This document shows positions 4,305 to 40,534 of a stretch of 64,000 bases of DNA, piece after piece. This DNA comes from Isoetes taiwanensis (Eukaryota; Streptophyta; Lycopodiopsida; Isoetales; Isoetaceae). The notes beneath the pieces were generated by a model that made no database searches, was not told the origin of the DNA, and worked only from the letters and a program-made list of their open reading frames with translations. A program made the position numbers and the translations under genes. The first letter of the stretch is position 1. Every line of letters begins with the position of its first letter. Location: positions 1,118,001 through 1,182,000 of the forward strand of contig JAJEKV010000097.1 of the NCBI GenBank assembly GCA_021234155.1, read 5' to 3'.

Positions 4305-4735
4305 AGAAGTGTTGTTATAGTTGTGTCATGTGTCATACAAACACTAGTAGTTACTTTTATATGTCTTGCTTGCAAGTGTTAATGAATGCAAATATGTCAT
4401 TTTATAACATGGTTGTCGCATAACATATAATACTAGAAGTATTGTTATATATTGTGGTTGTGTCACGTGTCATTGTCGTATGTCATATACTACTACAAGT
4501 ATTGCTATAGATCATGGTTGTGTAACTTGTCATTATCATGTGTCATTATCATGTGTCATTGTCATGTGTCATATACTACTAGAAGTGTTGCTATACATCA
4601 TGGTTGTGTCATGTGTCATTGTCATGTATCATATACTTCTTGTTGCTATATATCATGGTTGTGTCATGTATTATATAATACTAGAAGTGCTATTATGATT
4701 ATGTCACGTATGATATAATACTAGAAATATTGTCC
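4305..4735. repeat. Degenerate ~60-bp tandem repeat
   Basis: About six to seven imperfect units of about 60 bp repeat here. Each carries ATGGTTGTGTCATGTGTCAT and ends near ATACTACTAGAAGT. The best-preserved units are between about 4440 and 4680. Short open frames across it are by-products of the repeat and are not considered coding. Confidence 0.8.
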
Positions 4736-16530: not shown

Positions 16531-17875
16531 TACAAATTTATTGTAGAATTATATGAATAAGATGTTGGCTTTAGGAACCATGTAGGGTTGTCAATGGTGC
16601 TTCTTTTAAGTTATTGTCCAAGTTGGATGTTAGATTTACAACTATTGAAAGATCTGTACAACAATATGAATCATACGGAGTTGTGCATGTCAAATATATT
16701 GGTCTGGAGGTACGATTTCGTTGCAAGGAATGAAAAGGTTGTCGCGCATAAGTACGGTTTCATTGCAAGGAATTATGAGGCTGTAGATGTAGATCCAATG
16801 TACATGGCAAAAATGTTGGTGTCAGCTGTATTGAGTTGCCCCATATGACAATCATTTGTGTCATTTTTAACTGGCATTAGGCCTCCAACAATGCCAATTG
16901 CAAAGCATGTTGGTCTAGAATGTTGTGTAGTATTTATTGGTTCAGAAAATGACGAACAATGTCCAACAAAGAATATGTAATTTAGATGTCATATAATTTA
17001 GACATCATATCTACCCTGGAAAATATCTAGTCTATTTTAGGTTCTTCCATTTTAACAAAGCAACCTAAGGGAAGGAAGCCTATATCGTGTGCACTGAAAT
17101 ACTCACATTTGGTACTGGATTTGCAGTATGGTAAATCTCTGCTATGTTGATATTGTTGTGATCTTTCTATTTTGTGATGTGCATGTAGGATTACGTTTGG
17201 CTCTTATTTTATTTATTTTCTTAATCAACCCTATATCTTTGAAATCTTTGGATGCTAAAAAGGAATTCGTTTTGCTTATTCATTTGATTGCCCATTTTTC
17301 TTATTATATTAAGCCCTGGCGCCAATAGTTTACCTGAAATACTCATGAAGTTGTGGCTAGCTTTCCAAATCTAAAGGAATTGTATCTAGAAATCTAAGCA
17401 TTAGTACCAATAGTTTATTTGGGGCTATTCGTTAAGTTGTGGCCTGGTTGTCAAATCGTTATTCATTAAGTTGTGGCTTGCTTGTCAAATCTAAAAGAGT
17501 TATCTCAAAATGTTGTGAGGGATAATTAAAGAACATGTGCATGCATCATGAACGAATGCAACAAATGCATGTTAATCACAAAAAAACATGCATCTATTAT
17601 GAACAAACACATGTCCCATCTCTATAGGTCTTTCTAGATGTTCATGACATGTGAATATGGCCTAATGTTCATGACATGTATATTGGAGCATGTGGCACTT
17701 CTCCAATAAACCATTTGCCACACAATTGCAACCTGAATGTTATGTATACAGTATACGTACGTTTCTACTTTTGCAATTTCACCGTAGTCTATTTTGCAAT
17801 TTTATCCTAGTTTGTATTATCTTGCATAACAATTATTGACATTTTATTTATCACGACATTATCTATTATCTACAA
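16531..17875. other. Presumed Helitron body; no gene
   Basis: Adjacent to the Helitron end. A plus-strand open stretch at 16588-16848 contains an imperfect 42-bp duplication (GTACGRTTTCRTTGCAAGGA, near 16710 and 16752) but no recognisable domain. No transposition gene is visible, so the element would be non-autonomous. Confidence 0.4.
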
Positions 17876-18376
17876 GGCTGCTAAGACTAATCTAACATAC
17901 TATCCTAGCTCATTGTTGGGCTAAGAGTCGTCTTTGCACAACAGAATTGCAGTTTACCTGATCCTTGGCTTGCTCCAACTCCTCGAATCGCGTCCATGCC
18001 TTCGTTCTTGCTGAAGACGGTGCTCCTGAGGAATCTAATGTGCAAAGGTGGCTCGGCGACCTGGCAATGCGGAATGGCAGCTTGCCTTGGCCGGAATGGC
18101 TCAGGGAAGCCAAAATGCGAAAATGGAAAAGATTTGGGGTTTTCCCTTTTGTTCCTTATACATGAACTTTAAAGGTTAGGTTAGAAGGGACCAAATGGGG
18201 TATTGCCATTTGGCAAGGGGTTTAATTGCATATGTTTAATACGCATATGCAACATACGAGGTTGCCCCCTAGGCGCAACTCTTTACAGCTCTCAAGTACT
18301 TGTCGTGGTGACATGTACGTGTGACATGGCAGTATAATATACGTATTTAGACCGTATGTTATGCTGGAACGTCACA
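17876..18376 (-). repeat. 3' LTR remnant of the chromovirus
   Basis: This roughly 500-bp segment matches the far end of the 5' LTR, with the same CTAACATACTATCCTAGCTC start region and the shared end GGAACGTCACA at 18376. The remaining kilobase of the LTR is missing at the left. The similarity stops abruptly at 17876, so it is a deletion or a replacement, and no left target duplication can be read. Confidence 0.8.
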
Positions 18377-19060: not shown

Positions 19061-19327
19061 TTAATCTACCTCACACTCACCTATCGGTTCGGTGTCGACT
19101 ACTTCGGTAACGAGCCGATCCTTGCATTGCTCCATGAATTGGGGGTATTGCTTCTCCAAATCTGATTGTAGTACCCACGTAGCGTCTTCCACAGATAAGT
19201 GCGTCCATTTCACTAGGTATTGGAGAAATTGGGATCTTCTTATCTTCTTATAGGACCTGTCAAGAAGAACCTCTGGGACGATTTCAAGCTGGTCGTCCGT
19301 CATTTCCAGTAACTCTGTTGTCTCCAA
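19061..19327 (-). CDS. Chromodomain at the C-terminus of the gypsy integrase
   Basis: The minus-strand frame contains PEVLLDRSYKKIRRSQFLQY followed by LVKWTHLSVEDATW and a C-terminal LEKQYPQF. This is the chromodomain fold: aromatic-rich strand, VKW, then a helix. In chromoviruses this module is fused to integrase and guides insertion to marked chromatin. It is separated from the integrase body by a frame break. Confidence 0.85.
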   Translation of the reverse strand: METTELLEMTDDQLEIVPEVLLDRSYKKIRRSQFLQYLVKWTHLSVEDATWVLQSDLEKQYPQFMEQCKDRLVTEVVDTEPIGECEVD

Positions 19328-19457
19328 TACTTCCTCTGGATTAGGCGTGTGCCTCTTCAGGAGACTTACATGGAAGACTATGGATTTTGAGATGCGCTGG
19401 CAGGTCCAACTTGTAGGATTGGCTACCTACTCTTTTGGTTATCCTGAATGGACCAGG

Positions 19458-20264
19458 CTATCTTGGAGCAAGTTTCTTGCAATTGCCGATGCGAAGCTTC
19501 GCTTGCTTGATTTTGATCTTCAGCCATACGTTGTCCCCAACTTGGAATTCCCTTACCGTTCTGTGCTTATCAACTATGCTTTTCTGCCTGCTTCTCGCTG
19601 CTAGGAGATATCCTCTCACCTCCTCCACTAGCTGTTGCATATCGGATAACATCTGCTGAGAGACTTCAACTTTGGACACCGGATTGTGCCACGTATATGG
19701 TGTCAAGCATTGATACCCATAATTAATCATGAAGGGCGACATCTGGAAAGATTCTTGCTTGGTGCTATTATAGGCGAACTCCACCAAGTGAATAAAATCA
19801 TTCCATTTTAGACTGCTTATTCCAGACATAGTTTCTCAGCATGTCTTCTATGATTCGATTTGTGTGCTTCGTCTGTCCATCCATCTGAGGATGATATGCC
19901 GTATTCATGGAGAGCTTCGTCTGAATCGTGCTGAACAAATCTTGCCAGAATGCGCTCATGAACTTTGAATCTCTATCCGAGATTATTTCTCTCGGCATCC
20001 CGTGAAGTCTAAAGATCTCTTTAGTGAACAATATGGCGGTGTCTAAAGCCGTGTCTGTGGTCCTGCATGGCATGAAATGTGCCATCTTTGACAACTTCTC
20101 CACCCACCATTAGGGCATCTTTGCCCCTTACGGTTCTTGGGAGCCCTGTGATAAAGTCCATGCTTATTACCTCCCATTTCGCATTCGGCACAGGCAATGG
20201 CTCTAAAGCTCCAAGAATTCGGAGTTGTTCCGCCTTCATCTGCTGACGTAGCTGGCACTCTCAA
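19458..20264 (-). pseudogene. Ty3-type integrase core and C-terminal domain
   Basis: Several overlapping frames make up one integrase. The core gives EVISMDFITGLPRT (first catalytic Asp), then IISDRDSKF (second Asp), TAYHPQMDGQTKHTNR and the FIHLVEFAYNST region. These are followed by FQVGDNVWLK, the GPY/F-type C-terminal domain. In functional Ty3 integrases the third catalytic residue is the Glu of GQTE; here that position is Lys. Frame changes near 19810 and 20100 further break the protein. Confidence 0.88.
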
Positions 20265-20836
20265 ATGTACCTGGCTATTTGCTTCTTCATGCCGGGCCAG
20301 AAGTAGCTGCTTCTGATCTTAAAATAGGTCTTCATAAAACCTGCGTGTCCGGCTATTGGGCTATTGTGTGTGTCATGGAGTATCAATTTCCTGACTCCTG
20401 ATGACTCTACGCACAATTTATTTTTAAAGTACAATAGGTTACTTTCCTTCTTAAAATGTTTGAAGGTTTCCCTCTCTTTGTCCGTTCTTGCCTCTTTAGA
20501 AAGGCGTTCCCATGCTTCCTTGAAGTCTCGGTCTAGAGGCATCGTCTCTTCTATTTTCTTGCCGAACTCACTGGTGAGTGTTGATATGGCATTGCTGTGG
20601 ACTCTCGTCGTCAAGAGATGCCTTGAGAGCGGGTCCACAACCATATTGAGCTTGCCTGGCTTGTACACAATGACAAAATCGTACTCCTCCAGGAACTCCA
20701 TCCATCTCCTTTGCCTCAAGTTGAGATGTGGTTGGGTGAAGACATATTGTAGACTTTGATGGTCTGTATCCAATTGGAACTTCCTTCCCAATAGATAATG
20801 CCTCCATATTCTCAATGCTCTTACCACTGCTAGCAA
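20261..20836 (-). pseudogene. Ty3 RNase H and integrase zinc-binding region
   Basis: The frame includes LAVVRALRIWRHYLLGRKF, DTDHQSLQYVF and QRRWMEFLEEYDFVI, then YKPGKLNMVVDPLSR. This is the RNase H domain that closes pol before the integrase. It continues into HDTHNSPIAGHAG with KTYFKIRSSYFWPGM, the HHCC zinc-binding start of integrase. The CxxC of that motif is degraded (CQLR after a stop). The frame is the longest intact stretch of pol left. Confidence 0.9.
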
Positions 20837-20971
20837 CTCCTAGTCATGGGTTGGGTAGCGCATTTCGGCATCGTTCATCTTCCTTGAATCATACGCTACC
20901 ACCCTCCCTTCCTGCATCAAGACCCCTCCTGTTGCTATCTTGCTGGCATCTGTTGCTACCAACTTATCTTT

Positions 20972-21746
20972 CTATGGATCAGGCAAGACTAAGACTGGCT
21001 CAGTTGTTAAAGCTTCCTTCAATGTCACAAATGCTGCATGGGCCTTCCTTTGCCAATGACTCGCCCAATCTTTTATCTTTTCTGCTTTGGTGAGGTCTGT
21101 CAGTAGTGCTGCTATCTTTGCAAAGTTCTTGACGAACTTCCCACAATACCCTGCTAAGCTGAGGAAGCTGCTGACTTCATGGATATTCTTTGGTGCCGGC
21201 CAATCAATTACCGCTTCAATCTTTGCAGGATCGGTGGAAATCCCTTCTGTTGTAATTACATGCCCCAAGTACTCTACTTCGCATAAAGCTGATGCCTCCT
21301 CAACTTTTCAAGTACCTTCCTCAAGTGTTGGGCATGCTCCTCTAAGGATTTGCTGTAGACTAGAATGTCATCAAAGAAAACTATGATGAATGTATCTAGA
21401 AACTCGCGGAAAACATCGTTCATGAGCCTCAGGAATGTTGCTGGAGCATTTCATAATGGCCATATCTCGTCCTGAATGCAGTCTTATGGATGTCCTCTCC
21501 CTTGATTCTGATCTGGTGGTAGTCTGACCTCAAATCTATCTTGGAGAAAACCTTCGCTCCCTGCAGTTGATTCATCAAATCATCTGATTGAGGTAGCGCA
21601 TACTTGTTCTTGATGTTGTGTTTGTTCAATTGATGATAGTCAATACACATTCTGAGACTTCCATCCTTCTTCTTGACAAAGAGTATTGGCGCTCCAAATG
21701 AAGAGATACTAGGTCTTATAAACCCTAGGTCTAGTAGCTCTTGCAA
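20972..21746 (-). pseudogene. Ty3 reverse transcriptase
   Basis: The RT starts with [20 protein letters not shown] and [15 protein letters not shown], then [18 protein letters not shown]. The catalytic motif is FFDDILVYS, near 21350-21380 in a frame between the two longer ones. The thumb region gives GHVITTEGISTDPAKIEAV. Relative to active elements the polymerase is split by frame changes near 21430 and 21270. Order and spacing are normal for Ty3/gypsy. Confidence 0.92.
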
Positions 21747-22537
21747 TTATTTCTTCAATTCCATCAACTCCTGAGGTGACATTCTGTACGGCACCTTACT
21801 TGTTGGCTTCATTCCTGGCTCAAGTGCTATTTCACACTCGACTCCTCTGTAAGGTGGAGGTTGCTTAATCTCATATGGGATCAAATCATGGAATTCCTTC
21901 ACCAACTTGGCTGTGATTTCTTTATCTGTTATCTCAATGATCTTGCCATCTGGCATCGTTAAGGTTACTTTTCGCTTCCCACAATCAATCACGGCTCCAG
22001 CTGGTCTAAGGTATTTCATGCCTATGATCAAGTCGTACTTGCCGATGTTCATCACTTCTGCTCCCATTCCAACGTTGATACGGGCAAGTCTATATTGAAG
22101 TTGATCCTCTTCCCTGCTGCGTGTCGCATTGCCCCACTTGCCAACACAACCGGTCTAGGCTTGGACTTCAAAGGCTTCAGTTTCAACATCTTTACCATCC
22201 TTGGCGAAGAAAAATTGTGGGTATTCCATGTGTCTATCAACACTATGAAGGACTTGGCCCGGACTTTCCCAATCGTCGAAATGACTTGGTACTGACTCTC
22301 AGCATTCTCGGAGTCTATAGCAGCAAAGATGTGGCACTCACCCTGGATGTAGTCTCGAGCATCTTCTTCGTCGATCTCCGGGGGTGTCTCCCATCCTCCT
22401 AGCTCTGCTAACGTCGCATTCATTACAAATGGGCAGTTATGTGTCCGATGTCCCGGCTGGAAGCACCTGAAACACAACTGCTTTTCAATACATTCCTGCC
22501 CCTTCTCCTTGGGGATGGACTGTAAGAACTGCTTCAC
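21747..22537 (-). pseudogene. Gag zinc knuckle and aspartic protease
   Basis: CFRCFQPGHRTHNC is a CCHC zinc knuckle. It is followed by a spacer and FIVLIDTWNTHNF at the protease active site. Active proteases have D-S/T-G there, and the Gly is lost. Next comes YDLIIGMKYLRPAGAVIDCG, the conserved end of the retropepsin, and the linker to RT. A frame change separates the two halves at about 22060. Confidence 0.85.
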
Positions 22538-22711
22538 TGGTTTGGAGTAGTTTGAACCACCTGCTTGCTCCTTATCCTTCTTCTTGTCCTGTTTGCCGAA
22601 ATTTGCATTGCCTTGCTTTCCATAATTTGCGTTGTACTGAGGTCTGGTAGTTGCTGGGCTTGTTGCTCTTGAATTGTAGCTTCCTGTAGCCCTCCCCTTG
22701 TCCTGATAGTA

Positions 22712-23483
22712 CTATTGCCTCTGCCCACTCTCTTGAGGTCCTGTTCCTTGTAAGTTCACTGCTTTAGACTCTGCTTCTGACACTGTTCTGGGGTTTATTG
22801 CTCTCACCAGCTTCCTGATCTCCTCGTTCAAGCCTTCAATGTACCCCTCTACTACGTGTCTTTCACTCAATTTTGGCACATAGAGCCTCAACCTCATGAA
22901 CTCTTCGGTGTACTTTTGGACTGTCTTATTGCTCTGCTCCAACTTGTAGAACTGTTGCATCATATGGCACTTGTGTTCCCTCGGCACGTAATGACGCTTA
23001 AATGCCTTGGAGAACTTCTTGAATCTGCAGCTATCTCTGCTTAACCCATGGGTTTTGGCATAAAGCCTTTCCACCAAATTCTGGCTACTTCCTTGAGGTT
23101 GGCTGTTGCTATCCTACCCTTGTCCTCTCCTTCATGCTATAAGCATTCCCATACTCCCTCATTTCGTCCAACCAAGCTTCGGCTTCCATTCCAGACCTGT
23201 TGTCCCCTGAGAACTGTTCCAACTTCCTGGCTTTCCACACGTTGCTCAGTGCCGAGTCGACTTTCTTCTGATAGTCGGCTTCCATTTTGCCCCTATGATC
23301 ACGGTTGGGACCCTCCCGGCGGTCATGCCGATCGTTTTCCTGCTCTTCAGATCCGGAGTCGGAGTCGGAACTAGAGTTGAAGGAATCCGTGCTAGGTGAT
23401 CTCCTTCTCCAGCTTCTCTTCTTTGCTTTGTCTGCTCTGTCAGCTGGTGTTTGAGGTAGTTGGACATTCTGGTCTAGTCCCAT
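22712..23483 (-). pseudogene. Ty3 gag
   Basis: The 5' part (from an ATG at 23483) is Arg/Ser/Asp-rich and ends in ARKLEQFSGDNRSGMEAEAW. The next frame has FKKFSKAFKRHYVPREHK and KTVQKYTEEFMRLRLYVP, the retrotransposon gag domain. Two frame changes lie between them and before the zinc knuckle. The ATG at 23483 is about 460 nt downstream of the end of ORF X. Confidence 0.85.
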
Positions 23484-23945
23484 TGCTGCCGCCCCTGCCA
23501 GCGAGGCTCTTATTCATGGATATCCGATCTTATTTGCGATATTTCTTCTTCTGGGGTTGGTGCCTCGAACTCTTGGAACAGGTTCCTTGGTTCAAACTGC
23601 CTTGCGGGTGTCTGGTCTTCCTGAGGTTATCTATCTTGTTCCACATTCCTGGGTGCTCTAGCTGCATACACATTAGATTGCAGTCTGATGATTAGCTTTT
23701 TGTTTGTTATTGCATTGGTTTGTTTGATGATATAGTTATAGGGACAAAATATATCAAAGAACACACATAATGCCATAACTTATATTCATAAAGTGCAATA
23801 TTTTTACAATTGATAAGAAAGAGAGATAAGTTTTAATCTATTCTTGGAATCTTCTATATGCCAGGTTGTCTTCCAAGAACTTCTTCACTTGGGCTATGCC
23901 AATTATTCGCCCCAAGTTTCTAAGGATGTTGGTGGCCGTACCACC

Positions 23946-25135
23946 TTAGAGTGCCGTCACCAGGTCTTCGATCCTTCTATCTGACGTATAGGCTGTAGTG
24001 ACGGCCAACTCTTCTTCGGTTCTGATTCCAGCCCTGTGTCTTCCGGAGTACTCATCTACTGGCACTACTATCATATCTCTGTAGTTGTCGAACATGGACC
24101 TGGAAGAGGTCAAGTTGATGCCGCCTCTTTCTAATCCGACTGGCGCTACTGCTGAGGTGCTGGGCAGAAGTGCGCTTGTTGTTTTTTCCCTGATGCCCAT
24201 CCGCTCTTGAAGTGCGATGAACTCCTCCTCCGAGGGTAGCTCCTGCTGCGTGATCATCTGTTGGATGCCGATGTAAGCTTTGATGTCCGATGACGACTGG
24301 CCAGAGTACATGTAGGCCTCCCTGATGTTGATGGGGAAGTCTTGAGTCTCCCGGTCGATGAAGTCATCGAGGTCGGGCTGCTGACGGAGAAGGTATAGGA
24401 GTTCGTCCACCCTATAACTTCTATCTCTGCACTCCGGGAGGTTCTTTATGTCATGGAGCGTCAGGTACTTCTCCCCTTGGATAATGACCAGGGTTAGACT
24501 GTGATGCCTAACCCAAGTGGGGGTGCTATCCTTGTTACTCTCAACCCTTCTTCGAAGCTTGGGAGATCTTCTTCTGTTTGCTGCCTTTCTTGTATGGGGT
24601 CGATGTCGATGATGTCTTCCATGTCGGATCCCTGTCCTTCCTCGACCTCTTCCTCCTGTTCTGACTCCTCATAGTCCAGGAGCATTTGCTCCGCTTCACT
24701 TCTTTTGTGGCCATGGGTTCAATCTCTAGAGGTTGAACAAAGGATTCCGCTGTCTGGGTTTGGGCTCTTTGGAACAAAAAGATGGCTACAGCTGTAGTGT
24801 AGGAGAAATATCTCTTCCTATTTATGGATATAGTCACGTAATTGGGCATGCGAGCAGCCTTATTTTCTAGGTACTTCTCTATATTTGGGATGTCATTCAG
24901 AACTGCGCGGAGAGCCATTCTAGGTGCAAAATATTCTATGCATGGGGGGGAGTTCTATTAGAGAAGATCCTATCTTGGCAAGGAACTCGGTCATGATCTC
25001 TTGGTAGAAAGGTGTGGCATTTATGGTGGTATCTACATCGATCTCCTTTTGGAAAACAACGAAGATCGAATTGCTGTCAGTCTCAGCCACATGAGCAGTG
25101 ACACTGTACCATCGCCTGAATGCAGAAGTGGCCAT
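23946..25135 (-). pseudogene. ORF X: unrecognised extra gene upstream of gag
   Basis: A roughly 1.2-kb minus-strand coding region starts at ATG 25135 (MATSAFRRWYSVTAHV). It runs through ELPPMH, shifts frame at a G-run near 24950, and continues EYFAPRMALRAVLNDIPNIE and MPNYVTISINRKRYF. It shifts again into an acidic block (EESEQEEEVEEGQGSDMED). After another break it ends with MDELLYLLRQQPDLDDFIDR and a Ser-rich tail. I do not recognise any domain. I choose ATG 25135 over an earlier ATG at 25231 because a TATA-like box at 25244-25256 lies about 110 nt upstream of it, the same spacing as in the neighbouring histone-like gene. It could be an accessory protein of the element or a captured host gene. 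Confidence 0.65.
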
Positions 25136-25243
25136 GATGATGATGCTGCTAGGGTTAATAAACAGATTCTGGAAGCTCCTCTGGGAGCTGAAAGATCGCC
25201 TTGGAGTGAGGAGTGACAAAGTAGAATGCAAATGAGGGTTGTG

Positions 25244-25256
25244 GTCATATTTATAG
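25244..25256 (-). promoter_or_regulatory. TATA-like box upstream of ORF X
   Basis: On the minus strand CCTATAAATATGA lies about 110 nt before the chosen ATG of ORF X. The equivalent position before the histone-like gene carries CCTATAGATAGA. Both follow a pair of stem-loop repeats at comparable distance. Confidence 0.55.
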
Positions 25257-25430
25257 GCAAAACCCTAATCTGAGAAATTTTTAAGGTTTGGGGATATCTA
25301 TGCCTTCAAGGTCCTGCTATGCAATTGATAGGTGATCTAGGTTAAAGAGTACCTTCTGATGATCTTACTGCAAAAGATTTTACCTAATTTGGAGGTACTA
25401 GGGATGAATTTGGGTCATTTTGGTCTGACC

Positions 25431-25498
25431 ACTCACATAGTGCGCGAGAGGCATTCTCAAAACTTTTGGAAATGGTCCTGGCGCACTCTGTGAGGGGT
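25431..25498 (-). promoter_or_regulatory. Stem-loop repeat, copy 1 (upstream of ORF X)
   Basis: The plus strand reads ACTCACATAGTGCGCGAGAG through to GCGCACTCTGTGAGGGG. The outer 14 bases on each side are near-perfect inverted repeats (CTCACACAGTGCGC / GCGCACTCTGTGAG), forming a stem. The interior holds GCATTCTCAAAACTTTTGGAA, also partly self-complementary. Confidence 0.75.
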
Positions 25499-25634
25499 GG
25501 GCTCCTGTTTGGGTCCTAGATAGCTCTAAAATTACAATCTAAGAATGGAATCCTAGTTATCTCACCGAGCTAAGGTGATTTGTGCCCTTACTTTCTACAT
25601 TTGGACAAGTCTAGACATAGATCAGTGGCCAAAT

Positions 25635-25690
25635 ACTCACACAGTGCGCAAGAGGCATTGGAAATGCTCCTGGCGCACTCTGTGAGGGGT
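25635..25690 (-). promoter_or_regulatory. Stem-loop repeat, copy 2 (upstream of ORF X)
   Basis: This has the same outer arms (ACTCACACAGTGCGC ... GCGCACTCTGTGAGGGG) as copy 1 but a shorter interior (AAGAGGCATTGGAAATGC). It sits about 200 bp from copy 1. Confidence 0.75.
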
Positions 25691-25836
25691 GGGGCCCAAA
25701 ATAGTGACTATTTGTCCGATTTAACTAATTCTAAATGCGCATGCCAATATTACAACCTCAACAAACACAATATTACACTTCACACTTGATCAAAACATAT
25801 TTATATTCGCAAAAAGTTTTTACAGGTTACATCAAG

Positions 25837-26984
25837 CTAGCAATCTTCCTTCTTTATAAACCTGGCTAACTTCATGTCTCTAGGCATACAAGTGACTCTC
25901 TTTGCATGGAGAGCACATGCAAGGGAATCTTCGAAATGTTGGACTAACCTTTGCTCTGCTGCCTTCTGCAATGCAAGTAACATATCGTCTGTTACTCTCT
26001 TTGTCTTGTCAAATTCTTGTAGGAGTTCGCGGGTGAGTCTTACGAAGGCAGCTCTTGGAATTAGCAGTCCGTAGCTCCTCTGAAAATGGCGAATCTCCCG
26101 AGCCGCTCTTGCAAAATAGGAGTCCACTTTTCTCTTCATGGGTTTCTTCGGTGGTACTGGTCTCTCCGCGGGTCGACTTCAAGTTATTCTTCTTTGTCGG
26201 CCTTCCTCCCTCCACGTATGTCACCTTATTTCCCTCGTAAAACTTTGAGTACTTGTACATATTCATGTACTCGTTGTACTTCTTCAGCTTCTTCCAGTAC
26301 TCCCACTCGTGCTTGAGTACAAAGGATTCTCGAGCCGGTCTGCCCTTCTTTGGTTCAGTTGTTGGCTTCGGCCACTTCGGGTATGGAGGTGCTGTTGCAG
26401 ATTCATCCTCCTCCTCCTCTGGGTTTGAAGGACCGGAACCTTCTGTTGGGTGGGGCACTCTTGACGCCCCCTCATCCGAGTCTGTGTCCGATGAAGACGA
26501 CAGTGGCCTGTCGGGCTCTCGCTCCCTTATACTCACCCCTTTTGCTGGTGTTGACTTTGTCTTCCTCCGTGTTTTATTGGGCATTTCGGGGTCCTTTCCT
26601 TTGGCCTCTTTCAGCTTTTGCTGCTCCTCCCTTTGTCTTTTTCGCTCCTCCCTCTCTCCAATTCTCTTCCTCTTCGTTGCTCTCTTCTTCTTGGCCATTT
26701 TCTCAGCCGACGTGCTAGTTCTTCTGGGATCGGCTCGCCCTTCTCATCATCCTCTTCCTGGACATTCCCCTGCTCCTCAGGGTTTTCTTAATCATCTGGC
26801 TCCTGGGTTTGCTCTTGGGCATCTTGCTATTGGTCTCCTTCCTCAGCATCTGAATTAGTGTTAGGGTTTTCTGCCCATCTGGCTCGTTCTTCAGCCTCCC
26901 TAGCCTTTTTTGAGCTGCAAGAACTTGGGCGCTGGTATAATTGTCGGGCATAACCACTCGAGTAGTTTGTTTGGTGGAGGCCAT
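25837..26984 (-). pseudogene. Histone H3-like gene inside the chromovirus
   Basis: This minus-strand gene starts at ATG 26984 with MASTKQTTRVV, close to the H3 tail ARTKQTARK around Lys4. After an A-run indel near 26913 it continues as an acidic linker (with TAG and TAA stops at Gln-like positions). A basic, coiled-coil-like stretch follows (MAKKKRATKRKRIGER...), then a region ending YEGNKVTYVEGGRPTKKN. After a further frame change near 26175 comes a full histone fold: PPKKPMKRK, AREIRHFQRSYGLLIPR, FVRLTRELLQEF, LLALQKAAEQRLVQHFED, ALHAKRVTCMPRDMKLARF. This follows H3 helix by helix, from alpha-N through L1, alpha-2 and L2 (HAKRVT.MP.D..LA) to the C-terminus. The product would be about 380 residues, far longer than canonical H3 (135), with a ~250-residue insert between tail and fold. 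The gene is broken here. Homology to H3/CENP-A is clear; function (chromatin mimicry, targeting or silencing evasion) is inference. Confidence 0.9.
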
Positions 26985-27078
26985 ATTTTGAAATATGTCA
27001 ATCGCCTTCCGAGCGCCTAAAAATCGTCTTCTTGGCAGGAGATCGGCTAGCTGGAGAAGAAAGGTGAAAATGAAGGGT

Positions 27079-27088
27079 CTATCTATAG
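27079..27088 (-). promoter_or_regulatory. TATA-like box upstream of the histone H3-like gene
   Basis: The minus strand reads CCTATAGATAGACCC, centred about 95-100 nt before the ATG at 26984. It matches position and flanks (CCTATA...ACC) of the TATA-like box before ORF X. Confidence 0.5.
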
Positions 27089-27198
27089 GTCTGGAAATTT
27101 TAGGGTTTGGACTTGCAATTTCATGTTATACCATTCTGTAAAGCATTAGCGTTTGCTGGATTAATACATTGGGTTCCTTCAGGCAAAAAGTACATAGC

Positions 27199-27265
27199 AC
27201 TCACACAGTGCGCGAGAAGCATTCTCAAAAGTTTTGGAAATGCCCAGGGCGCACTCTGTGAGGGG
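27199..27265 (-). promoter_or_regulatory. Stem-loop repeat, copy 3 (upstream of H3-like gene)
   Basis: ACTCACACAGTGCGCGAGAA ... GCGCACTCTGTGAGGGG, with the interior CATTCTCAAAAGTTTTGGAA, almost the same as copy 1. Confidence 0.75.
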
Positions 27266-27411
27266 TCACACCTTTTTGACTCGAACTTTCATTTTGTAAG
27301 CAGTTTCTTAGTGCTAGAACATACATTCCTAGCTCAAATTTAAGTTTTAAGCTACTCTAAGCTATCAGATTGCTCTAATTATGCATCGAACTAGGTCAAC
27401 ATGGGTCAACC

Positions 27412-27473
27412 ACTCACACAGTGTGCGAGAAACATTCTCGTTGGAAATGCCCAGGGCGCACTCTGTGAGGGGT
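27412..27473 (-). promoter_or_regulatory. Stem-loop repeat, copy 4 (upstream of H3-like gene)
   Basis: ACTCACACAGTGTGCGAGAA ... GCGCACTCTGTGAGGGG, about 210 bp from copy 3. The interior lacks the AAAAGTTTT part, as does copy 2. The long and short forms therefore occur in the same order before both genes. Confidence 0.75.
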
Positions 27474-27672
27474 CACTTCCTAATGGCCATAATTGTTCAG
27501 GGTTTTTTTCTACAATTCTTCCTAACTTAGCATTACTCTACTTTATAGCTCTAAGGATTGGAATTTTTTTTTCCAATTTTTTGAGGTTCATGCTTGGGTT
27601 GCTATTCCCAAGGTTGGAAGTCTACTATTAGTTCTAACAGAGAATGGTCAGTGCCCGATCTTGGTCTACCAA

Positions 27673-27690
27673 GATCATGCTCTGATACCA
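27673..27690 (-). promoter_or_regulatory. Primer-binding site, initiator tRNA-Met
   Basis: The minus strand reads TGGTATCAGAGCATGATC three bases after the end of the 5' LTR. The first 12 bases are the standard complement of the plant initiator tRNA-Met 3' end. This fixes the element's orientation and the 5' LTR boundary. Confidence 0.9.
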
Positions 27691-27693
27691 CTC

Positions 27694-30600
27694 TGATGTC
27701 CCCTATTTCTTCTACGATGCTCCCATCATATCAGAAGGCGGAGTTCATCTCCCCGGCAGTCAAACTGACAGGGGCTACCTCCTGACACAAATCCTTGACA
27801 ATGGATCGATGAGGAAGAATGGATGGGTCATTTGCCCCATCTTCCCTCGGGACCGTCCTAGCTGCGGAGTGTGAGTAAACATAAGCACATGACATCAATA
27901 TATTAACACTACTAGAGTGGTCCCGGGGACTATTCCTGGTCCATGGACCAGAATTGGTCCAGTTGACCCACTGTCACTTAAACCAATATATTTGAGAATA
28001 GAAGTTTCAATTTCGCGATATATCGCCACCATATCAATCTTTACTTGATTCTTAATGAACTTCGAGAATTTCAAGGCCAATGAACTCACCTATATGTTGT
28101 AGTGATTGTTCAAATATTAGAGAATTTGACAGTTTCTGCAACAGTCCAGAACTGCATTCTTGGGTTTTTCTAGCATAAACAAGCCTAAACCTTGCTAAAA
28201 TTGGAAGTATTTGTCTATTTATGATAGAACACATTGATTTGTATGTTTTCAGCTTTGGTTGCTATCATCTAACGTCCGTGGAAGCCGGCAAACCCTATTT
28301 TGTTCAAAAATGCTGCTTGCGGTTTAGGAATTATTTGTCTCTTATTTATTACAAGTTTTTGGTTAATTCTTGTGGCCATGAATTCTTAACTATATGAAGT
28401 ATAATCTTATGTTTTTTTGGAGTGTTTATAAGTTATATCAACTTCAAAATCTAATAGAGAATTTTCAATACAGAATTTAGGTCAAAATTATATGTTAAAA
28501 TGCTCCAAAATCACCAACTGTAAGTATCACAAGGATAATGAATGATGCAGTCTTCTTATATCTACATAGAAAATTACTCTATCAACTTGCATATAGTGTA
28601 ATTAGGGTTTAACCATGTAATTAACTAGATTTAAAGATGATGTACAACCATAGGATTAACACATTAGAGGTTAAAATTTTGAGTTAATTCCAAAATTATA
28701 GGCTGAAAACTCATCATTTACTAGCTAGTGATGTTTATTGATGAATGAAAGTGAAGATTGTGAAGTTTAATTATAAGAATAAAAAATTAAACCATATGAC
28801 CTTTGATGCGTCTTTCTCAGCTTTGTAGAGAACACACTACATTTCTCCAAATAAGCCTTTCAAATCGTTCAAAATATGACAAGGGACATATATATAGGTC
28901 CCTTATATAGGCTATGTGGCTTTCTTGCAAAAATATACGGAGAAACATGGTTTTTACTAGTATAAAACTGGTGTATCCATTGCTGCTACAAAGCATTAGA
29001 GTTCTAGTAGGATAATGTTACAAGTAGGTCATCTTTTATGTATACTATATTTTTCATGAATGCGGGCCTTCCTTTGCAATATAACTCTCAATTTTTGTAT
29101 TGAAATAATATACTATTTGAAAGATATGAATATAATTAAGCATGAACCATTTATGGTCCATAACTAGACCAATTGTATAGAGCATATATCTCTCACTAGC
29201 CCTATCCATTTTGTCCCCATAATGAAACATGGTTTCTTACCTTTAACAATATAGTTTTTGAATGGTAAAAGTGGAAGTCCATGTAGATTCAATTGGCAAA
29301 TAAATACCCCATAAATTCACAGTGATTTGTGCTTAAACATTGCCCTCAAATTATGGAAGCTCGTCTAACCAATTAATTTTACCCCATAGAGAACTCTACA
29401 CATAAACTATATTCTAAAGTTGAGATCAAAATTGATTAAGATGTTGCCTCTATTAATTTTTAAACTTCCAGTCCTGTGGACCAATAATGGTCTGCAAGTG
29501 GAGCTGCACATAGCAGTCTAACTTGACTTTATATAGTCATAAACTTCCATATTTTTCTTTGAATTTTTTTGCATTGATTTCATGACATGGAACATTTTGA
29601 GAATGTGTTTTTTCAAAGTCACATCTCGAGGCATAAATCTAGAATAAATATAGAAGACATATTTGAATTTGATGCTATAAAGTTTAATCCAAATCTCAAG
29701 GTTATGATCAACAAATATTTTCCTTACTAAAGTAAATCAGAAGCTATTCATATCCCAAAATTCAACTTCAGATCAATTAATATAAGGAAGTTATTGATTT
29801 TAAATGGACCTATGGACCAATAATGGGCTCAGGTACAGAAACCTTTCTTGATTTCTTGTGACCATGTTTTTTGCTTTTTTTAAGAGCTTGTTTTTGCATT
29901 GGTTTCATATCATTTTGAACTTTCATATTATGATTTTTTGGAGGACATCATAGAGTAAGTTTTGTTCTATGTGGGGAAATATTAATCATTATTACAAGTT
30001 ACCTAAAATTGAGATCAAAAGTGAAAGTCGAAACATCAAACTCAAGGCCAACCAACATTTTTATGAGATGAAGAAACTTGTCAATTGCTTATATGTCAAA
30101 TACTATCTCAAAATGCATTTCCTTGTAAAAGTTGTTGTATTTAAACTACAACTGCCTTCTGGGAACCATAATTGGTTCTGAGGAGGCAGAAAGCAGTTTT
30201 GACCCTGTCATGTTTGAATGGCCCTATCTTTCTTCACAGTCTTCGGATTGACATGTGATTTTTTTGTGTCATTTTCTCTATCTCGTGTAGAAAAATATCA
30301 TGGTAATCAAAAAAATTGGAAAAATCGTTTTGTCGAGACAGTTTTACTTTATGTAAACATGAAGCTTTTGGTACTTGACCCCCCTGAGTTTGCTAGAGCA
30401 TAACTTACAAGAATGGAGGTGTATATATTTTTAGGTATTTTTCTAGTGGACCATGACTGCCATATATGAACTCCTAGGAAGGGTTTGAATAGATTTTATA
30501 CCATTGATTTTATATGAATTTTAAAGTGAACACTGCAAATGGACCATTTCTGGTCCATCAGTTGACCACTCTAGTGTTAACAGAATCACCTCGAAGGGTG

Positions 30601-31869
30601 ACTACTCCATAACATACATGTAATATCATATCAATAACATCATCATCACATGGGGGATCCTACCCAATGGCTCAGACTCCAGGGTATGGACTGACGGCTT
30701 GGACCTCCAGAAGTCATTACAGACGGAATTCATAAAGAATGAATTGGGCTGGCATAGAAACATGGCTGTTGGGTAGTCCACTCCATCCGCCCCTCCCATG
30801 CACATTTTGCAGAGTAGGTTGAAGAGTCTAGGGACTGGACCGTAGCCTGCCGAGTGCGTAACCAGAGGGGCTACTGCTGGGTTGCATCTCCCCAATCCTG
30901 ATGAGGCAGGAGGAGAGTCTCCTCCCCTCCAGAGGCATGCATGCCCATCACAGGTGGCTAGAGGGCCACTGCCCGTATTCAACTTGAACCTCATTGAAGG
31001 TGACGCATCACCCAAGAGGTGTCGACCTCATGCCTTACCCACACGCAGTGGCAAACCATTAAGCCTAGCCCGCTTAGATTCCCCGTAGGCTTTACACACC
31101 AGATGGATCAGTCAGTGATGGGACAAGTTCCCCTTATTCCATCGGTCTAGCCCCGCCACCCACAACCAGGCAGGCTCTTGTACACGGGCCGCATTAATTG
31201 GGAATTAATGAGGTTATCTAGGATCATCTGCTACTGATACACAGGAGAACATAGAATGGAACATCATCATCATCAAAGAACTGAAATATTGAATAAGATC
31301 TAATCTATCTTACCTAACATACATGGTTAGGTTCCTTCGTTACGACTGGTGATCTTAGGATCTATGAGGCTACTAAGACTGATCTAACATACTATCCTAG
31401 CTCATTGCTGGGCTAAGAGTCGGCTTTGCATAACAGAATCACAATTTACCTTCCTTGGCTTGCTCCAACTCCTTTAATTGCGTCCATGCCTTCGTTCTTG
31501 CTGAAGACGTCTGCTCCTGAGGAATCGAATGTGCAAAGGCGGCTCAGCGGCACCTGGCAATGCAGAATGGCAGCATGCCTTGGCCGGAATGGCTCAGGGA
31601 AGCCAAAATGCAAAAATGGAAAAGGTTTAGGGTTTCCCCTTTTGTTCCTTATACATGAACTTTTAGGGTTAGGTTAGAAGGGACCAAATGGGGTATTGCT
31701 ACTTGGCAAGGGGTTTAATTGCATATGTTTAATATGCATGTGCAACATACGAGGTTGCCCCCTAGGCGCAAGTCTTTACGGCTCTCAAGTACTTGTCATG
31801 GTGACATGTACGTGTGACGTGGTAGTATAATATACGTATTCGGACCGTATGTTATGCTGGAACGTCGCA
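27694..31869 (-). repeat. 5' LTR of the chromovirus, interrupted
   Basis: In plus orientation the LTR runs from TGATGTCCCC at 27694 to GGAACGTCGCA at 31869. It is about 1.5 kb once the 2.67-kb insertion (27907-30576) is removed. Parts such as CACCTCGAAGGGTG, CTCCATCCGCCCCTCCC and GGCTCTTG(T)ACACGGGCCGCATT are shared with the solo LTR at 37741-39367, so both belong to one family. The right end abuts a broken DUF4283-like ORF. Confidence 0.85.
27907..30576. mobile_element. 2.67-kb non-autonomous TIR element in the 5' LTR, flanked by TTAA
   Basis: The left end CACTACTAGAGTGGTC and right end GACCACTCTAGTG are inverted repeats (three-base indel), with TTAA immediately outside both ends (27903-27906 and 30577-30580). 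Host LTR sequence resumes on each side. Subterminal palindromes GGACCAGAATTGGTCC (27947-27962) and GGACCATTTCTGGTCC (30541-30556) extend the symmetry. Related half-sites occur internally near 29150, 29475, 29815, 30165 and 30452. There is no meaningful coding capacity. CACTA-like ends suggest CMC/EnSpm, but TTAA flanks suggest piggyBac-like or, if TA is counted, Tc1-like insertion. The superfamily is unresolved. Confidence 0.75.
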
Positions 31870-33748
31870 GGAGCATGGAGTGCCGGAGGAGCAGATGGAG
31901 GACCTTGTTGGTGAACCTTGCGAAATTGAGCAAAGAGAGGGGCCTCAGGAAACATGAGAGCTAGCTCAGGACCATTCATCACGAACAACTTGAATGGAAA
32001 GAAAATGGGCCCACTCTGGACAACAATTGTTTGAGGCAAATCACGATGAATAGGCCTTGCAACACAAATCTTGGTGATACCGTTACTTATGAAGTGTTGC
32101 AAATGGAGTCTAATCTCATTAGCAATGACGGAAATGAACTTGAAATCCTGTAGCTCGGGAGGGAAATCTTCAATAGCAAACTAGAAGGGGGCACGTAAGG
32201 CATCTGGCTTAGCTGGAAAGGATCCAGGAACATACTGCTGATAGCGCAAGAAGTGTTTGCAAAGAGGATCAACACCTCGTTCTATGAGTTGAGCAGCTGG
32301 CTCAGGAGATTCAAGCATCAAAAGAAAGCAACGTCGATCTTTTGTCACAAGCTTGATAGATTGATAAGCAGGAAGCCCTAGCTTATGAAGGTGCCCAGAC
32401 AACCAAGATCCCACGCGCTTCAGGTCCAAGAAAGGGCCAGTGAAATGGCAGATCACAAAGCACGCAACCAACTGCTCCACATGTCGTCGATGATCTTCAT
32501 GGCTAATCTGCACTACTGGAGCCACAAAATGCTCAAAAGTTGCCCTGCACTCCTGAACCTCATAAAAGATTTCGTCTAATGGGAGCTGGACATCCATGGA
32601 GTCTTGCTTGGCTTGCAATTGTTGGAGATAGGACACAACTTTTTTCCTGTTATTATCCACCATGGTGGCAATGGCCTAACGAGACCGAAATGAACCATGG
32701 CGTCGTCAAATCCTTGCAAAAGCCACTCGGAAAATCGCGACACCAAAACTTCGAGCCAGTTCGACGGATGATGATCCAAGGTGAGGTCGCCGCAACTTCT
32801 GGGGTGGAAGAGGAAGTCAATTTATGTGCTTGGGAGAAGATGGGGAACTCCTCCTCACGCCTACGAGGAACCTCCAACGTGTGTTGGACGCACCACTTGT
32901 CCTTCGGGTACCGGTTTGTGTGGGTTGCACTACCATCCAAGCACTACCTCCACGAGAAGTCCGCGTGAAAGAACTTCCAACCTGTGTTGGAGGTGCCGCT
33001 TGTGCAACACTATTAGGTGCAGCATGTCCAGAGGAGCACTCTACATGCAGGTGAGATCTCGACTGACATGAGACACCTCCAACATGTGTTGGAGATGCCG
33101 ACAGCCTAGAAGCAATTTCAGCAGACAAAGAGGGTCTTGCCTGACCCACAGAATTTCCAATGATTGTCGGAGGTGCTAATTGATCAGAGCACAGCACCTG
33201 ACCCGAGGAACCTCCAACGTGCATTGGATTGGAAGTACAACACTTTCAGAAGAGCTTTCCAATGGCACATATTCAACACGTCTTCCAGTCTCACCAGACG
33301 TGTGGACAGAGGCGTGAACTGTAGTCGAGGCAACTACAGTTGGAATAGAAACTAGAACAAGTAACTGAGAAGAGGAGAGAGATGGATCTCCTATCTCAAT
33401 TGAGACGACCCCACTCATGTCATTAGAAGAGATATTAGGCAACACTAAAGGATTGGGGTGCACCAAAGAAATCAAACTCTCAGGAGCCGAAAGAGCACAC
33501 TCGCGGGCCATTTTGTGTGCATCACATACATTTATTCTTGGAGAATCTGCAGCATATTCTTTTCTAATTCCTCCATGTACTATAGTAGAACTATCAGAAG
33601 AACGTTTTGGCGCATCTCTCCCATGCATGCATGCATTGCATGCATTTTTTGGGGGCTCTGGTTCATTTGGGGATCGTATTTCTTGCAAGTTCTTCATCGA
33701 CTTCTCATCGGCGTTTTCTCCTCTCTCAGCAGTTCCCTTGACTCCCAC
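31870..33748 (-). pseudogene. Retroelement ORF with DUF4283-like domain, cut by the LTR
   Basis: From about 32663 downward the frame reads LDLKRVGSWLSGHLHKLG, LVTKDRRCFLLMLESPEPAA, then a TAG where the domain has Trp (PF*FAIEDFPPELQDFKF). It continues to CVARPIHRDLPQTIVV and FAQFRKVHQQGPPSAPPA, ending abruptly at the LTR boundary 31869. The pattern (G-x-W-L-x-x-H, cFLl.l.spe.A, W-x-x-I-x-x-x-P-x-E, LP-x-x-I) is that of the DUF4283-like N-terminal domain of plant retroelement proteins. The upstream part to 33748 is Ser-rich, frame-shifted and low-complexity. No RT follows because the chromovirus insertion removed or displaced it. Confidence 0.6.
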
Positions 33749-37194: not shown

Positions 37195-40100
37195 TCTCTT
37201 AAGGGGAAAGGGTAAAGGAAAAAGGGGGGAAAGGAAAAGGGAAGAGACAAGAGAGAATGTGAAGGGCGAAAAGGCATGGGAAAGGGAGAAAAGCAAAGGG
37301 AAAAGGGATAAGAGAAGAGAAAAAGGCATGAAAAAATGAAAAGGGAAAGAAGAAAGAAAAGGGAAGGGGGAAAAGGTACCTGGAGAAAGGGCATGAGGGA
37401 AAAGGGAAGAGATAAAGTGGTAAAGGGAAGAGGAAAGGGCACGGAAAAAAAAGGAAGAAGGAAAGATTGAAGTAAGGGGAAAAGGGAGGAGAAAAAAAGC
37501 ATGGAAAAAGGGAAGAAAAAAAGGGCATGGGAAAAGGGAGAAGAGCGTTGAAGAAAGAGGAAAAAGGAAGGGAAAAATGGCATAGGAAAAGGAAAAGGAA
37601 AAGGAAAAGGAAAGGGAAAAGGAAAAGAAAAAGGAAAAAGAAAAAGAGAGAGGGAAATGGAGGGAAAAAAGTGAATCGAGAAAAGGGGAAGAGTAAAAGG
37701 TTGGGAAAATGAGGAAGAGGGAAGGGACCATGAGAAAAAGTGTGACGCTCCCTGAACATATACGACCCTCGGACGTATACATACGGGGACTTTCCCCTCC
37801 CATGGCGACCAACTCGCCATGAGCAGGGCCCTCCGTCTATTCCGGGCCATCTATAATATGATGCCCGAAAGAAGGACACGAAGGGGTCATTCGGCCCACG
37901 CCTTCAATGGGGCTCCTACGTCGCGAAAGCGTGAATACAAGGGTTAGCACACAGCATAAATCACATATAAATAACCACCTCGAAGGGTGGCATATCCATC
38001 CAAATACCAACGGCAAAGAATATGCATCAAACCTAAGAAAACACCCCAAACCCATGGTTCTACCCCTGCCTCGACTCGGTGAGGATCGACCGACGGCTAG
38101 GCCTCAAGAGATCAGCGTGACGTAATCTTGACATGGCGTTATGGCATAGAACATTGGCTAGGGTTGTCCACTCCATCCGCCCCTCCCGTGCACACTTTGC
38201 GGATGGGTCAATTCACGCTATGGCGCCGCTATAGCCTTCCGGAGACGCAGGCTCGAGGCATCACCCTGCTGAGCCTACTCCAGGGTTCATGAAGTCCTGG
38301 TCCGATGAGGCAGGTCGGGGAAGCGCCCCTTCCGTAATCACGGTGGCTCCATGGGCGAAGCTAGAGAATACGTGCGCATCAGCGACCCCGTGATCCGCAC
38401 TTACTTACTCGCCCTAAATCTACTCAAAGTGCAAGGTGCCCCATACGGGTCACACCTTCCCACCCAGGGAGTGTCAGACCCATACCCGGCCCTCTACGTG
38501 ACCGGCTATCAGGCCTAGCTCGCTATAGGAGTCCCAGGAGCCTTTTATGTTCGTGCAAGACCCCACCTCCACTTCACCACTGTGTCCCTTGTCTGGTGCT
38601 AAGCCAGTACCATAGCATCTATGACCCGGTGGGCTCTTGTGCACAGGCCGCATTTAACGGGATAATACAGGGCTCTATCTAGGAGCATACTACAATAAAT
38701 AGCCTCTGAGGTCTCTACCCCCCCCGTAATCCCCCATCTCCAGAGTGCTAACTAAGCAAAGAACTATCAATCCATCCTTTGAGAGCAAAACCAGAATCAA
38801 AATATAAAGAGAACTTACCTTTACAACCAAGGGTTAGTTCCTACGAATACAAGCACAGAGAGAACAGACAAAACACCACAACAAGTGCCCAACAGGGGCG
38901 CTACCCTAGAGTTCACAATCTAACTACTACTAACCAGTGTTTCGGCTGGACCCGTTATCGTGGGGTGCTTCCATCTTGTGGTACTAGGGTGGCAGCAACA
39001 GCTAGAGGATGTTTGGCGATTCGAGAACAATCAGCAACAGTTCTTGGCGCTCAGATGCTCCTTGGGCGCTTTGTTGGGTCGAATTTTGAGTAGGATGAGG
39101 GTGGCGCTTCTCTTAGACGGCTCAGTTTAGCAACCCCTATGCTGACCACTTGGGTTTTGCCAAGTGGCGCCTTCCCACCATTAATTGACTTAATAACATG
39201 TGCTTAGCTAATTATCCTTTATAAATAAGTTAACATAGCTAAATAAATCCCCTTCGGTCAACCCCCTAGGTTACCGTGCCCCATGGTGGCGTACGTTCAC
39301 TGGGTGACGTGTCAATATTTATACGTATACCGTATACGTGTATGGTATAAATACTTGGAACGTCACAAAAAGGGAAAAATGTAAACAAGAAAATGGAAGG
39401 GGGAAAGGGCATGAGATAAAAGGGAAGAGGAAAATGGCGAAGAAATAGAAAAAAGAAAAGGAAAAAAAAAGGGGAAGAAAGAAAGGGTGGGAAAAGGAGG
39501 AAAATAAGTATAGGAAAATAAGAAAAGAAAATAAATGTGGAAAGGCATGGGAAAAGGGAAAAGGAAAAAGGAAAAGGACAAGAAGGAAAAAGGGCACGAG
39601 GAAAGGATCGGGAAAGGAGGAAAACAAGAAAAAAATCCATTAGGAAAGGGAAAAGGGAAGGGAAGCAGGGGAGCGAGGGAAGAGGGGAAGAAAACATGGG
39701 AAAAGGAAAAGAGAAAATAAAAAGGAAGGGGGAAAAGAAGAAAAAATCGCACGGGAAAAAGGGAAGTGGGAAAGGGTGGGAAAAGGAGGAAAAGGAAAGC
39801 ACAGGAAAAATAGAAAAAAGAAAGGGGTGGAAAAAAAGGGAAGGGAAAAAGAGCGTAAGAGAAGAGAAATGGAAAAGAAAAAGGGAGGGAAAAGGGAAAA
39901 AGGTGGAGGGGGTACGGGAAAAGGGAAAAGAGGAAAATAGGAAAAGGGAAGAGAAAAAGGGAACATAGAAAACGGGAAGGGAGAAAGGGTGAGGAGATGG
40001 GAAAAGGGAAGGTAAAAAGGGCATGAAAAACGGGAGGGGAAAAAGAAAAAGGGAGGAGAAAAGGGGACCCAAAAAAAGGAAGAGCGAAAGGCTGGGAAAT

Positions 40101-40470
40101 GGAGGAAAAGATAAGGGAAAATAGGCATGGAAAAAAGCGACAGACTAAAAGATTGAGGAAAAGGGAAGACATGGAAAAAGGGTGGGGAAAAGAGAAGGCA
40201 TGGAAAAAGGTGAAGGGAAAGGGAGAAGGGCATGGAAAAAGGAGAAGAAGGAAAGGGTGGGGAAAGGAGGAAAAGGAAAGGGAAAAAGGTTATCGGAAAA
40301 AGGGAAGAGGGAAAGGAAGGAAAGGGGTGGGGAAACAAGGAAATATATGCGAAAAAACGGGAAAAAACTGAAAAGAAAAAGAAAAGTGTATAGAAAATAA
40401 GAAAAAGTGAAATACGGGATAGAGCAAAACGGAAAGGGAAACAGAAAGGGAAAGGTATAGGGCTTTTCTC
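37195..40470 (+). repeat. Polypurine (GGGAAA-like) tract, interrupted by a solo LTR
   Basis: Nearly pure G/A sequence at 37195-37740 and 39368-40470, about 1.65 kb in total, in irregular (GGGAAAAGG)n, GGCATGG and GAAAAAG units. The long Phe/Pro/Ser/Leu or Lys/Glu/Gly open frames here are by-products of composition. Such tracts can form triplexes or other non-B DNA. Confidence 0.9.
37741..39367. mobile_element. Solo LTR of the chromovirus family, 1627 bp
   Basis: TGTGACGCTCCC at 37741 and GGAACGTCACA at 39367 form TG...CA ends with inverted TGTGACG/CGTCACA. The 5-bp target duplication AAAAG is perfect (37736-37740 and 39368-39372). Internal stretches (CACCTCGAAGGGTGG, CTCCATCCGCCCCTCCCGTG, GGGCTCTTGTGCACAGGCCG) match the LTR at 27694-31869. 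There are no internal retroviral genes, as expected after LTR-LTR recombination. Confidence 0.9.
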
Positions 40471-40534
40471 ACTACAGCCAAAAACATTTATAGGCTCTCA
40501 ACTTACGCCCAGCAACGCTGGGTACCATTACTAG

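Follow-up and report, generated by a model that had tools for sequence, protein, structure and literature searches.

Transposon silencing works largely through histone-tail marks. Among the described systems closest to the locus reported here, Gypsy elements of Phalaenopsis encode an AlkB m6A demethylase (PMC9289625, in the sections covered), and single core histones occur in viruses, namely H3 in a xenomavirus, a prasinovirus-related virus and a sylvanvirus and H4 in a bracovirus (PMC9145170, in the part covered). In plants, the variant H3.15 is described in the excerpted text as lacking a methylatable K27 and as removing H3K27me3 (PMC10426802). A search of titles and abstracts in the open PMC literature returned none on a retroelement-encoded histone, in agreement with the first-pass annotation of this locus, which knew of no described LTR retrotransposon carrying such a gene. 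The word ‘histone’ occurs 0 times in the excerpt of a review on the extra ORFs that plant LTR elements carry (PMC7264820) and 0 times in the excerpted main text of two Isoetes genome papers (one of them PMC8566536). Likewise, no histone domain is named in section 12 of a screen for extra domains in 121 angiosperm genomes (PMC9289625), and the word ‘retrotransposon’ is absent from the excerpted text of the viral-histone review (PMC9145170). Here we describe an LTR element with an H3-like gene from the lycophyte (not fern) Isoetes taiwanensis, found in a 64,000-nucleotide stretch of genomic DNA hereafter called the window.

The window element and its two leader genes

The window carries on its minus strand a Ty3/gypsy element comprising LTRs, a PBS, the H3-like gene, a second gene designated ORF2, gag, RT, RNase H, integrase and a chromodomain; judged by its LTRs, PBS, domain order and chromodomain, it is a chromovirus. 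Unless stated otherwise, all element features below lie on the minus strand. The 5' LTR (27694..31870) is about 1.5 kb long, adjoins the PBS with its end and is split by a nested insertion (27905..30580, no strand assigned) of ∼2.7 kb, which carries short inverted repeats at its termini and TTAA at either edge. Positions 31306-31869 are repeated at 17818-18376 with 88.7% identity over 566 bp, and the core of this LTR pair shows 91.8% identity over 512 bp between the 5' LTR and the truncated 3' LTR (17868..18376), just before which lies a purine tract (PPT). The PBS TGGTATCAGAGC (27679..27690), which we assign to the initiator Met tRNA, is the sole exact match to this sequence within the window. 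Gag with its zinc knuckle (22300..23690, limits approximate; domain at 22715-23113) matched PF03732 (2.7e-13), the zinc knuckle giving a weak profile match below the cut-off. Pol, with protease, RT, RNase H and integrase (19440..22300), was delimited by Pfam matches and a frame trace (PF00078, 2.3e-9; PF17917, 2.4e-15; PF17921, 9.5e-14; protease PF08284 weak and below the cut-off). Gag, protease, RT, RNase H and integrase follow one another in chromovirus order, with reading frames broken in this copy, and the chromodomain forms the integrase C-terminus (19064..19426; PF00385, 9.2e-10). Compared with HP1, the chromodomain lacks the first and third aromatic cage residues and was therefore read as group II. 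When gag-pol pieces of the element were compared with the window by tblastn, nothing besides the element itself was found. Elsewhere in the window, positions 57443-58039 (minus strand) encode the N-terminal portion of a chloroplast acetolactate synthase of plant type (PDB, 2.8e-75), and low-complexity, purine-rich tracts in the region 37200-40500 contain several long ORFs that overlap one another and are probably spurious.

The H3-like gene (25837..26984), recognized by PF00125, by solved H3 chains, by its multiple copies and by selection, lies in sense orientation between the PBS upstream and gag downstream, which agrees with the position between 5' LTR and gag first proposed for it. An open frame spans its last 113 codons (25840-26178) and includes the H3 histone fold from αN to α3 (25840..26106); these codons matched PF00125 with 1.3e-21 in a profile search and solved H3 chains with 1.2e-20. 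The start, MASTKQTTR, shares six of eight residues with ARTKQTAR, against at most three of eight for the remaining 2,910 Met starts in the six frames of the window. Thus the original claim of an H3-type start and a complete H3 fold inside a chromovirus was confirmed, and the profile search that had been proposed for it gave a significant histone-fold match. Tail and fold are separated, as also claimed, by an insert that is first acidic and then basic, and another copy shows that the acidic reading indeed continues from the H3-like start. Frameshifts, together with in-frame stops in a reading that another copy keeps open, bear out that the window copy is broken. Gapless matches of the insert to the H3 tail were weak (scores reached by 50 and 103 of 5,000 shuffles) and were discounted because the insert is rich in Lys and Arg and one match lies in a reading now thought to be wrong. 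An AlphaFold model of the fold, of low confidence (pLDDT 55.6), showed αN, α1, α2 and α3.

In a joint alignment, the window fold is identical to plant H3.3 at 49 of 100 positions, the H3.3 reference agreeing with the solved H3 chain that aligned to the window fold. With six other H3-type sequences as a yardstick, identity to H3.3 was found at 21 of 29 invariant and 25 of 65 variable positions (Fisher p 0.002), and the same contrast with database proteins alone as the yardstick gave p 0.002-0.003. Such a concentration of identity at invariant positions would not be expected of a randomly decaying pseudogene of an ordinary H3. Searches of the H3 region against ∼5.8 billion proteins (116 and 6 candidates) yielded no member of the family by sequence and only three divergent H3-like proteins (P0003-P0005), with 43 of 96 to 47 of 99 identical positions in the joint alignment. 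Two of these (P0004 and P0005) are Lupinus proteins starting with MVRAMQTAR, with divergent H3 folds and without a normal tail. Neither IMG/VR scans with the fold, RNase H-integrase, ORF2 and chromodomain pieces and the hairpin pattern described below, nor one scan of a prokaryote genome, revealed relatives.

Beyond what had been annotated earlier, a second accessory gene, ORF2 (23841..25134), is present in the same element unit; it is broken in the window and under purifying selection across copies. Its pieces matched no Pfam family above the cut-off, its best relative in PDB had an E value of 0.14, a protein search gave no relative among 1,229 candidates, and a single-sequence structural model was uninformative (pLDDT 33.7). 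Four related hairpins are arranged as one pair ahead of each accessory gene, at 27405..27480 (distal) and 27190..27275 (proximal) upstream of the H3-like gene and at 25625..25700 (distal) and 25420..25505 (proximal) upstream of ORF2. Immediately before the two genes lie a candidate TATA-like core promoter with 5' UTR for the H3-like gene (26985..27130) and a candidate internal core promoter with 5' UTR for ORF2 (25135..25300). These regions upstream of the two start codons resemble each other around the TATA-like motif to a degree reached by 1 of 400 shuffles. Similarity between the two modules was not found in the inter-hairpin spacers (171 of 400 shuffles), and that between the segments preceding the first hairpins (44 of 400) or between the 3' UTRs (43 of 400) was no better than about 1 in 10. 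The arrangement suggests a duplicated internal promoter as a candidate for driving each accessory gene.

Copies, selection and related elements in the host genome

In the host genome (1,658,258,908 bases in 1,110 contigs), 43 pieces matching the H3-like gene, with identities of 75-93%, were detected at at least 40 places, namely the window and 39 others, 40 having been scored of 781 first-look candidates; identity at the 39 other places was 75-90%. Stretches of 5.3-5.7 kb were fetched around all 39 other places and their neighbours counted, a missing neighbour possibly reflecting a truncated copy, a nested insertion, divergence or the limit of the stretch. Hairpins precede the H3-like gene in 29 of the 39 copies (two or more in 20), follow it within 1.5 kb in 32 (two or more in 28) and flank it on both sides in 24; the region before ORF2 was present in 27, ORF2 itself in 25, an LTR end with PBS in 22 (exact PBS in 12) and gag, by blastn, in 14. 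The gene therefore recurs in this genome, the one in which recurrence was assessed, and many of its at least 40 places share the same neighbours; the refuting outcome named in the first-pass annotation, a gene occurring once and outside LTR elements, was thus not seen in the host genome. The copies of this family (family 1) look mostly dead.

N-termini were found for 29 of the 40 (28 copies and the window), the remaining 11 giving none. ARTKQTAR is exact in 11 of the 29, and positions 9-10 read VV in 20, MV in eight and VI in one, so that K9 is replaced by V or M in every family-1 N-terminus found; one further N-terminus with K9 was left out of this count, as it belongs to a nested second element in the fetched copy L028. 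With K9 in 0 of 29 N-termini found, the suggestion that the protein baits readers of H3K9 is unlikely for family 1.

Selection was assessed by pairwise Nei-Gojobori estimates, copies covering too little of a segment being left out (4 of 40 for the fold, 24 of 40 for the central piece of ORF2 and 29 of 40 for gag). The fold gave a dN/dS of 0.09 (36 of 40 copies, 630 pairs, mean dS 0.62), and the same alignments read in two shifted frames gave 1.23 and 1.67; pairs are not independent and a shifted frame is not a strictly neutral reference, yet within these alignments the readings differ widely. Thus the dN/dS test proposed at the outset returned strong purifying selection. Values for the middle insert were 0.19-0.20 and those for pieces of ORF2 0.17-0.28 (16, 19 and 23 of 40 copies), while gag gave 0.25 (11 of 40 copies; shifted frames 0.69 and 0.87), with a lower dS that makes it not strictly comparable. 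The closest pairs, with dS up to 0.15, had higher ratios (0.45 in eight fold pairs and 0.80 in seven ORF2 pairs), a pattern to be expected if single copies decay freely once inserted and constraint acts on the replicating lineage.

In-frame stops are absent from 24 of the 36 projected folds. R49, R52, R69, R72, R83, C110, H113, K115, R116, T118, D123 and R128, which we take to be, with the other sites examined, positions of DNA, H4 and H3-H3' contact, each persist in 28 or more of the 36. R63 is lost, being Pro in 30 of 35 folds; Arg replaces K56, K64 and K122 and Asp replaces K79, each in at least 31 of the 36 folds, and most family-1 folds have Asp at position 87 and Leu at position 90. In plant H3.3, H87 and L90 are contacts of HIRA (PMC10426802, in the text covered). 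The H3-like gene is almost certainly an element gene under selection; many copies and selection, the marks by which conserved additional ORFs are told apart from one-copy captures, are both present, and the data show that this amplified chromovirus family carries it as an accessory gene under selection.

The nested element of L028 represents a second type (family 2, one copy seen), with a similar LTR start and its own PBS. It contains a 350-codon ORF starting with MARTKQTARKFG and matching PF00125 (1.9e-15), whose product keeps K9, aligns with family 1 over 147 columns that take in the region preceding the fold, and stops before α3 in this copy. The next ORF is a homologue of ORF2 (39% over 148 aa, 2e-24) and is followed by a zinc knuckle and then a protease motif; the exact hairpin motif was not found in this nested element. 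In another fetched copy (L019), positions 4078-4564 in gene sense show 68% similarity to the nested element of L028, and a second family-2 relative may be nested there.

When the plant H3.3 fold served as the query against the host genome, 9,037 first-look candidates emerged, a loose figure and no copy count. Of 150 that were scored, 15 matched at 97-99% and were taken as host H3 genes; the other 135 matched at 85-89%, with open frames of 111 to 567 aa and a stop in three of the 135. Three copies of this third type (family 3; L049, L050 and L051), picked for their long frames, were fetched, and all three have a frame of 473-477 codons that starts with MANTKSA or MAPTKST, without an H3 tail, and ends in an H3 fold identical to plant H3.3 at 86-87 of 99 positions. 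This fold keeps K56, K64, K79 and K122, and pairs among the three copies gave dN of 0.000-0.009 against dS of 0.09-1.21. An ORF2-like gene lies downstream of the H3 frame in all three, open in one and broken in two, and an exact PBS lies upstream in two. Positions 37741-38733 of the window match all three copies at 83-86%, in L049 and L050 within the stretch that precedes the PBS and in L051 within the corresponding part, and since all three match, this segment was read as a family-3 LTR, solo or truncated.

Two other element types in this genome thus carry a related module, an H3-fold protein followed by ORF2. The scores of the family-1 and family-2 ORF2 against that of family 3 were each reached by none of 500 shuffles. 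In a small tree families 1 and 2 grouped together (support 94/93); with family 3 added, which fell on the H3.3 side, the same split was weak (76/81). That ORF2 is common to all three argues for one ancestral module, but as the divergence of the H3 fold differs greatly among the families, re-capture or differences in rate may also account for the pattern.

Possible roles of the element-encoded H3

We propose, with a probability of about 0.45, that the element encodes a tail-swapped H3 variant which enters nucleosomes and may thereby resist tail-based silencing. The H3 fold would pair with host H4, and the normal modifiable tail would be replaced by a long element-specific extension, family 1 retaining a recognizable H3 head, ARTKQTAR, with K9 lost. 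Incorporated at the new DNA of the element or at its own loci, the protein would form nucleosomes that the H3K9/K27-based silencing loop could not mark in the normal way, much as with H3.15. Histone-like constraint over the whole fold makes incorporation with host H4 the best explanation, and entry into nucleosomes is therefore probable, an estimate that draws on residue conservation and not on the low-confidence model. The most natural benefit to the element would be anti-silencing, for which the host variant H3.15 sets a precedent (PMC10426802); we put this forward tentatively. A single ‘cannot be modified’ logic fails for the three families, because families 2 and 3 lack the lysine losses of family 1; common to all three types are the H3 fold, a replaced tail and ORF2 downstream. 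As ORF2 follows the H3 gene in each type examined and has a similar candidate promoter in family 1, it may act as its partner, and from linkage and co-selection we would guess at a chaperone, a deposition factor or another partner of the H3-like protein.

An unlikely alternative role is that of an integration tether, in which the H3-like protein would mark chromatin for the integrase through the group-II chromodomain. The element does carry a chromodomain read as group II, and the partner of such chromodomains is given as unknown in the text covered (PMC3350952, PMC6317226). A tether alone, however, leaves the histone-like constraint over the whole fold unexplained. Moreover, to our knowledge, other chromoviruses manage without such a gene.

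The protein might also package or protect cDNA in the particle or on the way to the nucleus, as preloaded nucleosome-like units. Residues for DNA contact and H4 pairing are mostly kept and the gene is part of an amplified element, as this role would have it, yet host H4, H2A and H2B would be needed inside a cytoplasmic particle, and we consider packaging quite unlikely.

That the gene derives from CENH3 and mimics a centromeric H3, acting at centromeres, had been raised in the first-pass annotation. The motifs LLIPxAxF and RxT..LLALQ resemble plant CENH3, and seven of the 32 sites that distinguish H3.3 from maize CENH3 match the latter; nine of the same sites, however, match H3.3 and 16 match neither, the family-3 fold is identical to H3.3 at 86-87 of 99 positions, and loop 1 has the canonical H3 length, without the two-residue extension of CENH3/CENP-A. 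With diagnostic residues so mixed, a centromeric identity is improbable.

That the H3-like gene and ORF2 make up a mobile element of their own, or a piece of a virus, inserted into the chromovirus leader is most improbable: the leader is long (∼4 kb) and has candidate promoters of its own, but copy after copy shows the order PBS, H3, ORF2, which is common to three element types, and no convincing bounding terminal repeats were seen among the matches listed (20 of 23 direct families). Gene capture by LTR elements is known (PMC3726574; PMC7264820, in the parts covered), but passive carriage of a host H3 pseudogene caught once, and hence chance capture in a single dead copy, is refuted by the at least 40 places scored, by the fold dN/dS of 0.09 against 1.23 and 1.67 in shifted frames, and by two more element types that share this gene order.

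The proposed tail-swapped H3 could be part of something wider, though this is doubtful: lycophyte chromoviruses might run a parasitic histone system, old, diverged and widespread, in which a cassette of H3 and ORF2 writes element-owned, unmarkable nucleosomes. The cassette would then be of an age that let it diverge among three element types, and so successful that H3-fold sequences might number in the thousands across the genome (150 having been scored of 9,037 first-look candidates). Whether parasites rewrite the histone itself becomes directly testable with an H3 that is supplied by an element and under selection, and the element H3s offer natural tail-swapped H3 variants for study; they may also account for some of the Gypsy content in Isoetes.

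Comparison with known systems

The window element shares with chromoviruses the LTRs, the PBS and the order gag-PR-RT-RH-INT-chromodomain, and adds to them ∼4 kb of coding leader that contains the H3-fold gene and ORF2; the literature covered describes no such leader. Its histone would be the first core histone known from a retroelement, as far as the open PMC literature shows. Like plant H3.15 and H3.10, which the excerpted text ties to removal of repressive marks or to reprogramming (PMC10426802), its product is an H3 variant; those, however, are host genes, whereas the H3 described here is encoded by the element and has lost K9 in family 1. As in the viral H3 cases, a selfish agent carries a single core histone (PMC9145170, in the part covered), but there the carriers are DNA viruses, and here the carrier is a retroelement and the histone bears a long non-histone extension. 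As in the Gypsy elements of Phalaenopsis, a host-type gene, selected or functional, has become fixed in an amplified Gypsy family (PMC9289625, in the sections covered); in contrast to those elements, the cargo in Isoetes is a core histone, belongs to a two-gene module and occurs in three element types.
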